This document shows positions 3,955 to 7,260 of a stretch of DNA of 43,542 nt, piece after piece. Origin of the DNA: a virus. The stretch spans positions 1 through 43,542 of the IMG/VR virus record IMGVR_UViG_3300046660_000525; one strand, given 5' to 3'. Every line of letters begins with the position of its first letter. Positions within the stretch are counted from its first letter, which is position 1. The translations under genes were made by a program, and so were the position numbers. The notes below the pieces were generated by a model. That model made no database searches. It was not told the DNA's origin and worked only from the letters and a program-made list of their open reading frames with translations.

Positions 3955-4179
3955 TCAGGCAGACGGCGCGAGGGCGGCCTGCTCGGCGTGCCAGGCCTCG
4001 CACTTCGGCAGGGAGAAGCGGCGCCCACGACCCGCGAAGGGCTCCTCGGGCATCCCGTCCTCGATCCAGCGGAGGATCTGCCAGTCCGAGACGTCGTAGT
4101 ACGTCTCGATCTGCTTCTGGCTGAGAAGGGGGATGAGACCGGCCGGTAGGGGGGCGACTCGGTCAGTCTTCTTCGGCAT
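3955..4179 (-). CDS. MerR-like HTH protein, candidate excisionase (Xis/RDF)
   Basis: 74 residues with one winged-helix HTH of the excisionase type: LLSQKQIETYYDVSDWQILRW, then EDGMP, then GRGRRFSLPKCEAW. Proteins of this size and fold act as recombination directionality factors or small regulators; they bend DNA by cooperative binding to short direct repeats. It overlaps the 3' end of the Cro-like gene by 17 bases and is the second gene of the early operon, where Xis is expected. The 10-bp-period arrays at 4570-4599 and in attP (7101-7195) are the obvious candidate targets. The RDF role is inferred; a purely regulatory role is possible. Confidence 0.7.
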   Translation of the reverse strand: MPKKTDRVAPLPAGLIPLLSQKQIETYYDVSDWQILRWIEDGMPEEPFAGRGRRFSLPKCEAWHAEQAALAPSA

Positions 4180-4477
4180 GGGACCTTGACCTTTCTACTG
4201 TCACAGTCAAATGTGGGGGCATGGCAAAGAGGTCCTGGAGGGGTGCGTTCGTCCTCCTGTGCAGCGCTTCGGCGATGCGCCAGGCCGTTTCCATTTCGCA
4301 CCGGTCGCGGGCGGTCTTGCCGCGTCCAGTGAGGCGTCCGACGGTGGCCGGGCTGACGCCCTTGCCCGTCGGATCCACCTCCTTCGTCGCCTCCGCGAGC
4401 TCCGGGCCGGAGAGGCCGGCGGCTCGCATTGCGGCTCTGAGTGGCTGGCCTTCGCCCTTGCGGTGCAGCTTTGGCAT
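4163..4477 (-). CDS. Cro-like XRE-family HTH regulator, first early gene
   Basis: 104 residues with a helix-turn-helix of XRE type: LRAAMRAAGLSGPELAEAT, then VSPATVGRLTGRG, then TAWRIAEALHRRT. It diverges from the repressor at 4746 and is the first gene behind the promoter at 4535-4564, the position of cro in lambdoid and actinobacterial phages. Its C-terminal codons contain the third operator copy (4193-4209), so the DNA there has two jobs. The Cro role is inferred from position and fold. Confidence 0.8.
   Translation of the reverse strand: MPKLHRKGEGQPLRAAMRAAGLSGPELAEATKEVDPTGKGVSPATVGRLTGRGKTARDRCEMETAWRIAEALHRRTNAPLQDLFAMPPHLTVTVERSRSHAEED
4193..4209 (+). promoter_or_regulatory. Operator candidate 1
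   Basis: TTCTACTGTCACAGTCA matches operator candidate 2 (4536-4552) in 15 of 17 bases and candidate 3 (4698-4714) in 13 of 17. All three are in the same orientation and fit TTYTACWNTCACNNKCA. This copy lies in the 3' end of the Cro-like gene, just upstream of the Xis-type gene start at 4179, and could act as a secondary control site. Confidence 0.55.
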
Positions 4478-4534
4478 GTGGACCCCGTGCCGGGTGGTGG
4501 CTGTGTGACACCCCCGGTGTGGGGTGCTGTGACA

Positions 4535-4564
4535 TTTTTACAGTCACAGTCACAACGTCGTCAA
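4535..4564 (-). promoter_or_regulatory. Early (PR-like) promoter candidate
   Basis: On the minus strand a -35 of TTGACG (4559-4564) is followed after 18 bases by TAAAAA (4535-4540); TGTAAA at 16 bases is an alternative -10. It points at the Cro-like gene and the whole early operon. The -10 region lies under operator candidate 2 and inside the inverted repeat CTGTGAC-N9-GTCACAG (4527-4549), a layout expected for repression. Confidence 0.55.
4536..4552 (+). promoter_or_regulatory. Operator candidate 2
   Basis: TTTTACAGTCACAGTCA covers the -10 region of the early promoter. The flanking bases form an inverted repeat with 7-base arms and a 9-base spacer (4527-4533 and 4543-4549). The same 9-base spacer separates the arms of the 4696-4726 inverted repeat. 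A dimeric XRE repressor bound here would block early transcription. Confidence 0.6.
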
Positions 4565-4569
4565 CGGTT

Positions 4570-4599
4570 TCGCCGAGTCTCGCCGAGATTCGCCGAGTA
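4570..4599. repeat. 10-bp-period tandem array upstream of early promoter
   Basis: Three units of TCGCCGAG-N2 stand exactly 10 bp apart, directly upstream of the -35 of the early promoter. Read on the minus strand they are CTCGGCGA-N2, the same unit as the tandem arrays inside attP at 7101-7140 and 7166-7195. One helical turn per unit points to cooperative binding of a small protein along one DNA face. Confidence 0.75.
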
Positions 4600-4695
4600 A
4601 CCCACGATCTTCGAATGAGTGTTCTATTCTCGGTGCATATGCAGTTCACCACGGCGCGTGGCGGGGAGGTCGCGCGCTGCGATACATCGCGCCAT

Positions 4696-4726
4696 GCTTC
4701 TACTTTCACTTGCAAAAAGTAGAAGC
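4696..4726 (+). promoter_or_regulatory. Repressor-gene operator (inverted repeat) with promoter
   Basis: Perfect inverted repeat GCTTCTACTTT (4696-4706) / AAAGTAGAAGC (4716-4726) with a 9-base spacer; it contains operator candidate 3 (4698-4714). A plausible promoter overlaps it: -35 TTGCAA at 4710-4715, 18 bases, -10 CAATCT at 4734-4739. That would start transcription at about the GTG at 4746 and give a leaderless message. Binding here would autoregulate the repressor. Confidence 0.6.
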
Positions 4727-4745
4727 GGACGGGCAATCTGAGCGC

Positions 4746-5108
4746 GTGGAAAACCAGGAGCAGCCCGGCGAGACGTTCGCGGAGGTGCTCGCTGAGCTGA
4801 TGGACGAGTACCGCGTCAGCCAAAGCGACATCTCGCGAGCCATCGACGGCTCCCCCTCCACGGTGAGCCTCTGGTTGCGCGGGCAGCGAACCCCGCGCAA
4901 CGACACGATCAGGAAGATCGCCGAGGCTTACCCGAAGTACAGCGTCAAGCGCCTGACTGAAGCGGCTGGCCGCAAGGCTCCGGCGCCACTGACACCTGAC
5001 CGCAGGGAGCGGGTCCTCGACATCTTCGACCAGCTGACGGAAGAACAGCAGGAGATGATGTTGATTACAGGGAAGGCGCTCGCGGACAGTAACCGCGAGC
5101 AGAACTGA
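4746..5108 (+). CDS. XRE-family phage repressor
   Basis: 120 residues from the GTG at 4746. The HTH is typical: FAEVLAELMDEYRVSQSDIS, then AIDGSPSTVSLWLRGQRTPR, followed by TIRKIAEAYP. The C-terminal 50 residues (RERVLDIFDQLTEEQQEMM) look like a helical dimerisation segment. There is no peptidase domain, so release by RecA-type self-cleavage is unlikely. I chose GTG 4746 over an in-frame TTG at 4710 because the TTG lies inside the perfect inverted repeat and likely -35. Divergence from the Cro-like gene and proximity to integrase and attP make it the immunity repressor by position. Confidence 0.8.
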   Translation: MENQEQPGETFAEVLAELMDEYRVSQSDISRAIDGSPSTVSLWLRGQRTPRNDTIRKIAEAYPKYSVKRLTEAAGRKAPAPLTPDRRERVLDIFDQLTEEQQEMMLITGKALADSNREQN

Positions 5109-5171
5109 CATAGCGTCATAAACGCGCGTACAACCCTTGCCTGGGCTGAATGGTCTCAGCTAAACGGACTC

Positions 5172-5188
5172 AATCACTCTCGGTGATT
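5172..5188. promoter_or_regulatory. Inverted repeat between repressor and next gene
   Basis: AATCAC-TCTCG-GTGATT, with 6-base arms and a 5-base loop, lies in the 204-bp non-coding stretch 5109-5312. It could be an operator or a weak hairpin. I see no convincing promoter or terminator in the rest of this stretch. Confidence 0.35.
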
Positions 5189-5312
5189 CTGTGTGCGCGG
5201 ATCTTGCACAGAGTGGTCGCATATTCCACCAAGTCGGGGTAGTTTCGAGCGCACGGCCGATGTCCTCCCCCTTTGGCCCTCGATAGCCACACGTGTATCA
5301 GGGGGGACCGCC

Positions 5313-5564
5313 ATGTGCATCCGCGTCCAGTACGCACCGCGTCACGAGCTCGACGAGCCGTGGGACGCGTCCCGCCAACTGATCACCATCCCAGGCGAGT
5401 TGAAGGGCAACTTCGCCCTTCGAGCCGTCCGCGCCGTACTCACCGAGCTCGACATCGAGCAGGATGAAGACGGCGCACGGTGCTGGTGCGGGGAGCTCAT
5501 CAGACTCCTCGCGTACATACCTCAGCAGCGAAAGAACGACGAGGTGATCAACCTTGGCGCCTAA
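5313..5564 (+). CDS. Small conserved CWCGE-motif protein
   Basis: 83 residues from an ATG preceded by a run AGGGGGGA. A pattern I recognise from small Streptomyces proteins: MCIRVQYAPRHELDEPWDAS at the start, ALRAVRAVLTEL in the middle, CWCGELIRLL and PQQRKNDEVINLGA at the end. The CWC could bind metal, but two cysteines are not enough for a full site in a monomer. It lies between repressor and integrase on the same strand, and its last codons carry the ribosome site and TTG start of the next gene. Function unknown. Confidence 0.8.
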   Translation: MCIRVQYAPRHELDEPWDASRQLITIPGELKGNFALRAVRAVLTELDIEQDEDGARCWCGELIRLLAYIPQQRKNDEVINLGA

Positions 5565-5787
5565 GCCTGTGATTGAGCAGGTCCCCAGTCGCACATGCGG
5601 CTGCTACGACTGCCTGATCGACTACCCATCGTCGACATACGGCTTCCGCCCTCCACGGACCGAATGCAACGGCCCGTGGAACGTGCGATACCGCAGCACA
5701 GACGGCAGACTGCGTTTGAAGCGGCTCCCCAACCGCAAGGACGCGCAGCTGTTCGCCACGACGGGAGCGAGGCGCAATGCCTCGTAG
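5554..5787 (+). CDS. Stand-alone paralogue of the integrase N-terminal domain
   Basis: 77 residues from a TTG at 5554 with GAGGTGAT upstream; it overlaps the previous stop and the integrase start. It matches the first 65 residues of the integrase next to it: both have CGC-x2-CL-x2-YP, YG-x-R-x-PR-x2-C, then G-x-W-x2-RYR. Such an N-terminal segment should contact arm-type sites in attP. The protein ends soon after, with no core-binding or catalytic domain. Possible roles are an excision factor, an integration modulator that competes for arm sites, or a duplicated remnant. The intact frame and good start signals argue against decay. Confidence 0.8.
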   Translation: MAPKPVIEQVPSRTCGCYDCLIDYPSSTYGFRPPRTECNGPWNVRYRSTDGRLRLKRLPNRKDAQLFATTGARRNAS

Positions 5788-7060
5788 GGCCGCGAACAAC
5801 CCCCGCCAGATCCGCAGCAAGGTGTGCGGCTGCGTCCTCTGCCTGGAGGAGTACCCGCCGGACGAGTACGGCGAGCGCCGGCCTCGCCGTGACTGCGTCG
5901 GATCGTGGCAGGCCCGGTACCGCGATCCGACCGGGAAGCAGAAGTCCAGGAACTTTCCGATCAAGGACGGCGGCAAGGCCGCCGCGGAAGCCTTCCTCGA
6001 CGAGACACGTACCGCCGTCCGCCAGCGCACCTACCGAGACCCCGAGCGAGGAAAGATCACGCTGGGCAAGTGGTGGGGCGAGTTCTGGGAGGTCGAGCAG
6101 AAGAAGGGCCGGCCCACCACGAGGAACCGGAAGTTGGGCCTATGGACGGCCCACATCGAGCCCAAGTGGAGCGGCTACCGGCTGATCGACCTGGAGTACA
6201 TGGTCCTTCAACAGTGGCTCACCCGCGACGTGAAGGGCTACGAGACCCAGAAGAAGACCAAGGAGCTGCTCGTCGCGCTCCTGGATGCGGCGATCAGGGA
6301 CGGCGAGCGGATCACGTCCAACCCTGCGGCCCACCTGGAGCCCACGGCCGCGAAGATCGTCAAGCATCCCGACGACCTCAAGCCACCGACGGAGGCCCAG
6401 TACACGCTCATCCACGCGGCGCTGCCCGCGTACTACCAAGTGATCTTCCGGGACTGGGCCAACGAGACGGGCATGCGGCCGGGGGAGTACGCCGGCCTCC
6501 GTGAGCACTGCATCGACGAGGAGGAGCGCATCGCCTACATCAAGGAGATTCTCATCCTCGACGGTGGCCGTCTGCGCCGTCAGGCGGCTCCCAAGACGGA
6601 CGCCGGATTTCGGGGCGTGCCCCTGACCGATCGTGCGTGGGGCGCGTACCTGTTCATGAAGCAGAAGTGGAAGCCGCTGCGGACGCGCTCCGCGATCGGT
6701 GACGGGTTCGACCTCCACCTTGAGGAGCTCGTGCTCCGCGGTCCGAGGGGTGCGGCGCTCAACGAGAACAACCTCCGTCGGCCGTGGCGGAGGGCGTGCG
6801 ATCAGGCCGGGGTGTCGCGGGAGTTCGTCGACCCGGAGACCGGGCGCTCGCAGTGGTGGCCGCGGATCTACGAGTACCGGCACGACGTGAGCAGCCGGTT
6901 GCACCACGCGGGCGTGAAGGAAGTGGACACTCAGGCGTTCCTCGGTCAGCGGCGCGGCGGCAAGGTGACGTGGCTGTACACCCACGAGAGCGAGGGCGCA
7001 CGCGAGAACGTGCGTGCCGCGCTGAATGGGGAGGGAAGTGGACTCCGCGCCGTGCAGTGA
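5777..7060 (+). CDS. int: Tyrosine integrase
   Basis: 427 residues; GCGAGG lies just upstream of the ATG. Domains: cysteine-rich N-terminal arm-binding segment (C17, C19, C22, C40, then GSWQARYRD), core-binding domain at about 92-190 and catalytic domain at about 200-415. Catalytic residues visible are R234 (TGMRPGEY), K273 (APKTDAGFRG), R368 and Y401 (WLYTHES). The usual first histidine of box II is tyrosine (Y365-x2-R368-H369) and the usual LGH is LGQ (Q391). Role: recombination between attP just downstream and a host tRNA gene. The frame is complete. Confidence 0.95.
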   Translation: MPRRAANNPRQIRSKVCGCVLCLEEYPPDEYGERRPRRDCVGSWQARYRDPTGKQKSRNFPIKDGGKAAAEAFLDETRTAVRQRTYRDPERGKITLGKWWGEFWEVEQKKGRPTTRNRKLGLWTAHIEPKWSGYRLIDLEYMVLQQWLTRDVKGYETQKKTKELLVALLDAAIRDGERITSNPAAHLEPTAAKIVKHPDDLKPPTEAQYTLIHAALPAYYQVIFRDWANETGMRPGEYAGLREHCIDEEERIAYIKEILILDGGRLRRQAAPKTDAGFRGVPLTDRAWGAYLFMKQKWKPLRTRSAIGDGFDLHLEELVLRGPRGAALNENNLRRPWRRACDQAGVSREFVDPETGRSQWWPRIYEYRHDVSSRLHHAGVKEVDTQAFLGQRRGGKVTWLYTHESEGARENVRAALNGEGSGLRAVQ

Positions 7061-7076
7061 TCGTTTGGGGTCGGAA

Positions 7077-7095
7077 TCCACAAAGAGTCCACAAC
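7077..7095 (+). promoter_or_regulatory. P-arm integrase sites (paired)
   Basis: Two direct copies of TCCACAA start at 7077 and 7088, 11 bp apart. The same pair with the same spacing is found at 7336 and 7347 on the other side of the tRNA segment. An inverted copy, AAGTGGACT, lies at 7036-7044 in the end of the integrase gene. Paired direct repeats on both sides of the core are typical integrase arm-type sites. Confidence 0.65.
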
Positions 7096-7100
7096 GCCCC

Positions 7101-7140
7101 CTCGGCGAGTCTCGGCGAGTCTCGGCGAGTTCCGACGAGG
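7101..7140. repeat. 10-bp-period array in attP, cluster 1
   Basis: Three exact copies of CTCGGCGAGT at 7101, 7111 and 7121 are followed by a degenerate unit (TCCGACGAGG). The array lies between the P-arm sites and the core, the place where an excisionase binds in lambda-type attP regions. The unit is the same as in the array upstream of the early promoter. Confidence 0.75.
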
Positions 7141-7165
7141 GGTGCCGCGGGGGTCGCGCTCGAAA

Positions 7166-7195
7166 CTCGGCGAGTCTCGGCGAGTCTCGGAGACC
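7166..7195. repeat. 10-bp-period array in attP, cluster 2
   Basis: Two exact copies of CTCGGCGAGT at 7166 and 7176 and a partial third (CTCGGAGA at 7186). It ends about 20 bp before the tRNA-derived core. Clusters 1 and 2 start 65 bp apart. Confidence 0.7.
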
Positions 7196-7216
7196 CTGTA
7201 TTTATCGAGGTGAGCC

Positions 7217-7260
7217 CTTACAAGGCGGATGTCGGCGGTTCGAAACCGTCCGCGCCCACC
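7217..7260 (+). other. attP: attP core: 3' segment of a tRNA gene
   Basis: The sequence has the shape of a tRNA from the anticodon loop to the 3' end: loop CTTACAA (7217-7223), stem GGCGG, variable ATGTC, T-stem GGCGG, T-loop TTCGAAA (7239-7245), CCGTC, acceptor CGCGCCC, then ACC. The bases at anticodon positions are TAC, so the target is probably tRNA-Val; this is inferred by position only. There is no 5' half here, so it is not a gene. Integration would restore the 3' end of the host tRNA. Confidence 0.85.

Follow-up and report, generated by a model that had tools for sequence, protein, structure and literature searches.

Paired ten-base-pair repeat arrays at attP and the early promoter of a temperate Streptomyces phage co-vary with a BldC-like candidate excisionase

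Why does a temperate phage carry the same tandem repeat, one unit per helical turn, at its early promoter and in its attachment site, and which protein would read it? The question is raised by a 43,542-bp virus record, analysed over its whole length (the window), that is kin to the Streptomyces phages SF3, OnionKnight, VWB and mu1/6. A preliminary description of this DNA proposed that one small protein, probably the 74-residue product of a gene here called xis, may both tune early transcription and direct excision. A few enterobacterial phages and ICEs are known to have RDFs that also control transcription, and little is understood of how specific these proteins are for sequence. In the open-access literature we found no paper on these arrays in VWB, mu1/6, SF3 or OnionKnight; an earlier description elsewhere is possible.

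Relatives were gathered by searches with integrase and with Cro, which yielded 103 and 32 loci, respectively; 73 loci were left once near-duplicates and loci cut short had been removed. Co-variation of the repeat unit was analysed over 62 loci and promoter profiles were tested over 59. The layout of the window, with xis and cro divergent from c and followed by int, is kept in nearly all of the 103 integrase loci (Table 1).

Table 1 Coordinates of the switch region, the arrays and attP in the window
Feature	Position	Strand	Basis or remark
74-aa BldC-like winged-helix protein (xis), proposed Xis/RDF	3955..4179	-	phrog_66, BldC profile/fold, unit co-variation
cro-like repressor gene, first of early operon	4163..4477	-	PHROG 14639, E 3e-38
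Early-promoter -10 hexamer TAAAAA, predicted	4535..4540	-	conservation in relatives
Early-promoter -35 hexamer TTGACG, predicted	4559..4564	-	conservation in relatives
Promoter array, 3 in-phase 10-bp units CTCGGCGAAT, CTCGGCGAGA, CTCGGCGAAA	4568..4597	-	read toward early promoter
Divergent XRE-type regulator gene c, start codon uncertain	4710..5108	+	HTH_3; DicA/RstR-like below cut-off
Tyrosine integrase gene (int)	5777..7060	+	Phage_integrase, phrog_1
P-arm integrase arm-type sites GAATCCACAA, GAGTCCACAA	7074..7094	+	repeat family; site type follows Int tree
attP array I	7101..7138	+	perfect units at 7101, 7111, 7121; degenerate fourth unit
attP array II	7166..7193	+	perfect units at 7166, 7176; CTCGGAGA at 7186
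Attachment core, 47 bp	7214..7260	+	identical to 3' part of tRNA-Val(TAC)
P'-arm integrase arm-type sites GAGTCCACTA, AAAGTCCACAA	7333..7353	+	same repeat family as P-arm sites

Matching arrays at two distant sites

Directly upstream of the early promoter, the minus strand carries three perfect CTCGGCGA units spaced by 10 bp (4570-4577, 4580-4587 and 4590-4597), as the preliminary description had reported, and the two attP clusters that it placed between the P-arm sites and the core were also found. Array II starts 65 bp past the start of array I, which is the commonest spacing across the family in loci with two clusters; spacings of 55 and 75 bp were also seen. All three arrays are non-coding. 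The genome-wide motif count agreed with the claim that tandem copies occur nowhere else, since no further CTCGGCGA-N2 tandem was found in the 43,542-bp record at one mismatch or fewer, and at 3 mismatches two stray tandem matches appeared elsewhere in the record. At this looser threshold the 15 matches observed compare with a shuffle mean of 3.2, and 0 of 100 shuffles reached 15. Single CTCGGCGA units lie at about 28 other places in the record, again as described. In the full records of VWB, mu1/6, SF3, OnionKnight and three other contigs, CTC-N7-CTC-N7-CTC was found at the attP side, the early promoter or both, and nowhere else.

Along attP, int is followed by arm sites, array I, array II, the core and the P' arm sites, so that tandem sites spaced by one helical turn separate the P-arm integrase sites from the core, as in winged-helix RDF systems. 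The attP call itself stood, as the 47-bp core, the 3' part of tRNA-Val(TAC), also flanks a close prophage in Streptomyces albicerus. This prophage, which has a 97% identical integrase, is bounded by two core copies about 43 kb apart; one end (attL) holds the P' arm sites together with an intact tRNA gene, and the P arm with its arrays lies at the opposite end. The source locus is a temperate Streptomyces phage that integrates into the tRNA-Val gene. A third 47-bp copy of the core was observed in S. albicerus about 9 kb past the prophage end (L148; G001:C127 102835-102881), and this possibly belongs to a second element in tandem.

The unit varies by lineage and falls into at least five classes (CTCGGCGA, CTCGGAAGTT, CTCGGAACCA, CTCACTGA and CTCTCTGA), and promoter and attP versions match within each phage. 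When the reverse complement of the promoter was compared with the attP side, the best ungapped 28-mer match averaged 20.9 within a locus and 18.7 against other loci, a within-phage mean that none of 20,000 permutations reached; in the opposite orientation the values were 18.4 and 18.3. Over unit positions 4-10 (anchored on CTC) the distance was 0.351 within and 0.561 between phages (0/20,000 permutations). In 47 of 59 loci a profile of the attP units, applied to the phage's own promoter, found a two-unit array scoring higher than any of 40 shuffles, as against 6 of 59 on the wrong strand, with two-unit scores of 19.0 on the matching strand and 4.5 on the opposite one. The remaining 12 of 59 loci, SF3 among these, had no clear two-unit promoter match, and the promoter role may therefore be lost in some phages. 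Sites of equal sequence thus stand at attP and at the lytic/lysogenic switch, as for RDFs of the Apl/Cox type.

A BldC-like protein that tracks the unit

The xis gene is the second gene of the early operon, and its start overlaps the end of cro. Its 74-residue product matches phrog_66 (excisionase and transcriptional regulator; E 1.4e-5). A Pfam search with this protein gave no match; 42 of 67 family members match Pfam HTH_17 at E<=0.01, and the family is of the winged-helix HTH_17/excisionase type. Profile searches pointed to BldC (6amk, E 7e-7) and to terminase small-subunit winged helices. An AlphaFold model, run on the family alignment without the four named-phage rows, had a mean pLDDT of 83 (about 90-95 in the core), and its fold matches, at modest or weak E-values, were small terminase subunits, BldC (6ama, among the top), RdfS (8dgl) and Pukovnik Xis (4j2n). 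Both sequence and fold resemble the BldC family, and the mu1/6 member matches HTH_BldC, below the curated cut-off. BldC-type AATTNNNNC direct repeats were not found in the arrays, where the unit is CTCGGCGA-N2. BldC assembles head to tail into filaments on direct repeats spaced by about one helical turn (PMC5859096), and with BldC and, more weakly, RdfS among its solved relatives, the 74-residue protein may by analogy be the filament-type binder that the preliminary description had suggested. We consider it very probable that this protein functions as an excisionase.

In VWB, the xis orthologue (L003 2774-3007; NC_005345.2 2870-3103) is named terminase small subunit in the record, which also labels the attP array at NC_005345.2 141-167 as the stem-loop of a putative transcription terminator. 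Both are probably misnamed.

Four proteins of the locus, Xis, Cro, C and Int, were compared as possible readers of the unit. In partial Mantel tests, each protein being taken with the other three held constant, unit distance was correlated with protein distance for Xis (0.47, p 0.001), with lower values for Cro (0.07), C (-0.03) and Int (0.16), the last small but significant. Where integrases were at least 45% different, the nearest Xis predicted the unit (0.339) and the nearest Int was at chance (0.53 vs 0.535). Placed on gene trees, the unit class changed 5 times for Xis (minimum 4), 10 times each for Cro and C and 15 times for Int, with two automatic mislabels (L002 and L072) set aside and six CTCTC-type loci labelled by eye; the uncorrected counts were 7, 10, 12 and 16 for Xis, Cro, C and Int, respectively. 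Column resampling, with the Cro, C and Int alignments trimmed to the length of the Xis alignment, gave 6.1 changes for Xis, 10.1 for Cro, 12.8 for C and 15.4 for Int, compared to about 32 with shuffled labels. The reciprocal control behaved in the opposite manner, with the type of integrase arm site changing four times on the Int tree and 11 times on the Xis tree. Consistent with this, the CTCGGAAGTT unit stands beside TCCACA arm sites in two loci (L023, L074) and beside TGCCACA arm sites in two others (L071, L139), and the Xis wings are similar in all four. As xis and cro are adjacent and co-inherited, the Xis and Cro signals are both inflated.

Simple cross-tables of residue and class were used to examine the protein, because per-residue mutual information without full tree correction, which was tried and set aside, was confounded by two deep clades. 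Residue 36 of the recognition helix is N in 15/15 ACTGA loci and L in 14/16 GGCGA loci. In the wing, residue 52, just before the RR pair, is G in all 16 GGCGA loci, whereas 8 of the 10 GGAAGTT loci have Q or E at this position; all six GGAACCA loci carry a wing insertion of 5-6 residues. Residue 52 aligns with His46 of BldC, a residue located in the minor groove (PMC5859096). These links of residue 36, residue 52 and the wing to the unit are correlations within lineages, and they mark candidate contacts.

That promoter and attP share the arrays, that these are in phase and that they co-vary with Xis can be read from the sequences of the loci, and we are highly confident both of the sharing and of the link to Xis. 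The co-variation over 62 loci favours Xis, and not Cro, C or Int, as the putative reader of both arrays. The dual-reader idea of the preliminary description is therefore well supported as far as predicted binding is concerned, because the type of unit tracks Xis and the protein is BldC-like.

The early promoter and competing explanations

A TTGAC-N17/18-TAGAAA-like promoter is conserved in 63/73 loci, and the early promoter was called because of this conservation; scanning the 43,542-bp record for the sigma-70 consensus gave no promoter. Within the window, unit starts fall at -33, -23 and -13 relative to the -35 hexamer and the last unit ends 3 bp before TTGACG, a position that an activator could use too. 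Across loci the unit starts keep a fixed phase, at about -35, -25, -15 and -5 from the first promoter hexamer, and in many loci the -35 hexamer lies inside a unit (CTCGTTGACA, CTCACTTGAC). Early and c promoters are back-to-back, with the cro-xis and c genes diverging.

Several other elements were noted in this region. A second operator-like repeat, TGACTGTGACTGTAAAAATG, occurs in the early-promoter spacer (4530-4552) and just before the xis start (4187-4209); repeats of this type match better within than between phages (17.0 vs 14.8 of 22), and their reader is perhaps Cro or C. On the c/int side, TCGAATGAGTGTTCTA at 4611-4626 resembles the Streptomyces LexA box, tCGAAC-N4-GNNCGa (PMC9380542). 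Sites in which 10 or more of 12 positions match TCGAACNNNNGTTCGA were found in 59/73 loci, compared to 1/73 shuffled, and the c/int promoter may be under SOS control. Positions 4639-4730 form a conserved leader before c, with an ATG directly after the promoter and two hairpins, one with a GGGGAGG loop and one CTTCTACTTT...AAAGTAGAAG (fold z-score -2.1).

We strongly favour a model in which the 74-residue protein is the Xis/RDF of this phage and would bind the CTC units at attP and the early promoter, serving excision and autoregulation; physical binding, excision and the repressive sign are what we infer from the sequence patterns. Xis monomers would line up head to tail on the CTC-headed 10-bp units, each helical turn taking one monomer. 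In attP/attR, excision would use two phased filaments, placed between the integrase arm sites and the core, to bend the P arm. At the early promoter, Xis would bind the array abutting the -35 hexamer, most likely spreading over it, and would limit cro-xis transcription; it may also touch the back-to-back c/int promoter. Regulation of the promoter by this protein is probable, and repression is the likely form that it would take rather than activation, since units in fixed phase at or over the -35 hexamer favour steric repression of the early operon and thus negative autoregulation.

The reverse sign, in which the protein on the promoter array serves as an upstream activator beside the -35 hexamer, appears unlikely. 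The units end 3 bp upstream of this hexamer in fixed phase, where contact with RNA polymerase is possible, and RdfS is known to activate one promoter while repressing another (PMC11963761). Against activation, units in many relatives overlap the -35 hexamer and even reach the spacer (starts at -5 and +5; L047, L052, L061), where a bound protein should block sigma; moreover, RdfS is a repressor at its own promoter, as is Apl at both switch promoters.

Readers other than Xis were also considered, and the tree and Mantel tests led us to reject the arrays as Cro/C operators, integrase arm sites, host BldC sites or terminators. Operators for the Cro-like protein or the C repressor, placed in attP for immunity-linked control, would fit the adjacency of cro and xis and the joint second rank of the Cro and C trees, but the partial correlation is gone once Xis is removed and the separate TGACTGTGACTGTAAAAATG repeat is already there for such proteins. 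Cro/C-type proteins usually bind dyads, and 10-bp direct repeats suit monomeric RDFs; we consider this reading very improbable. Still less credit is due to the idea that the arrays are integrase arm-type sites: they adjoin attP and the Int correlation is significant, but the separate TCCACA/TGCCACA family on both arms follows the Int tree, the arrays do not, and the early-promoter array would be left unexplained. Least probable of all is that the arrays are bound by a host factor such as BldC, are terminators or are chance GC-rich repeats. The 74-residue protein does resemble host BldC and one VWB array sits under a terminator feature, but phages that share one host genus have different units, which track each phage's own Xis, BldC prefers AATTNNNNC (PMC5859096), an array that precedes a promoter is not a terminator, and shuffles give no such arrays.

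Relation to known RDFs and implications

Coliphage 186 Apl, like the proposed Xis, is both an RDF and a regulator of lysis-lysogeny, with direct repeats one helical turn apart at att and at the early switch. Apl sites lie between face-to-face promoters and its monomers bind with low sequence specificity (PMC7498355), whereas here the promoters are back-to-back, the array abuts the -35 hexamer and the unit is clear and lineage-specific. P2-like Cox is likewise a small winged-helix RDF that also regulates early and lysogenic promoters. In P2-like phages, however, the early operon opens with the RDF gene (PMC7498355), and an additional C-terminal helix is present in P2 Cox (PMC11963761); here xis comes after cro and the protein is BldC-like. 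Neither the RDF-first gene order nor the face-to-face promoters of the P2 type were found at this locus. Early and c genes diverge, and we therefore regard the system as Apl/Cox-like in action and do not file it as a P2-type member.

RdfS of ICEMlSym R7A shares the HTH_17-type winged helix. It is oligomeric, binds attP and its own promoter and autorepresses, with no recognisable consensus (PMC11963761), unlike the strong consensus here, which changes together with the protein. Streptomyces BldC (6ama, 6amk) is a MerR-like winged helix among the closest by profile, but it is a host developmental regulator with AT-rich AATTNNNNC sites, whereas the present protein is a candidate RDF of a phage and its CTC units are GC-rich. 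Mycobacteriophage Pukovnik Xis (4j2n), an actinophage RDF of similar fold, binds tandem sites (PMC7498355). The notable main difference from described dual RDFs is a sharp unit that changes together at two distant sites.

If one excisionase-like protein reads both arrays, the excision signal probably also adjusts the phage's own expression. We lean towards the view that the RDFs in a large family of Streptomyces temperate phages have a readable code, in which a helix residue would set unit positions 4-5 and the wing positions 6-10, and that each lineage retuned both arrays together to give mutually orthogonal sets for excision and autoregulation. Such a code would contrast with the low (Apl) or absent (RdfS) sequence specificity of other systems. 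With at least five different units among dozens of natural protein-array pairs, the specificity, and the need for promoter and attP to match, can be tested directly; matched integrase/excisionase/att sets would also become available for Streptomyces vectors based on phages such as VWB and mu1/6.
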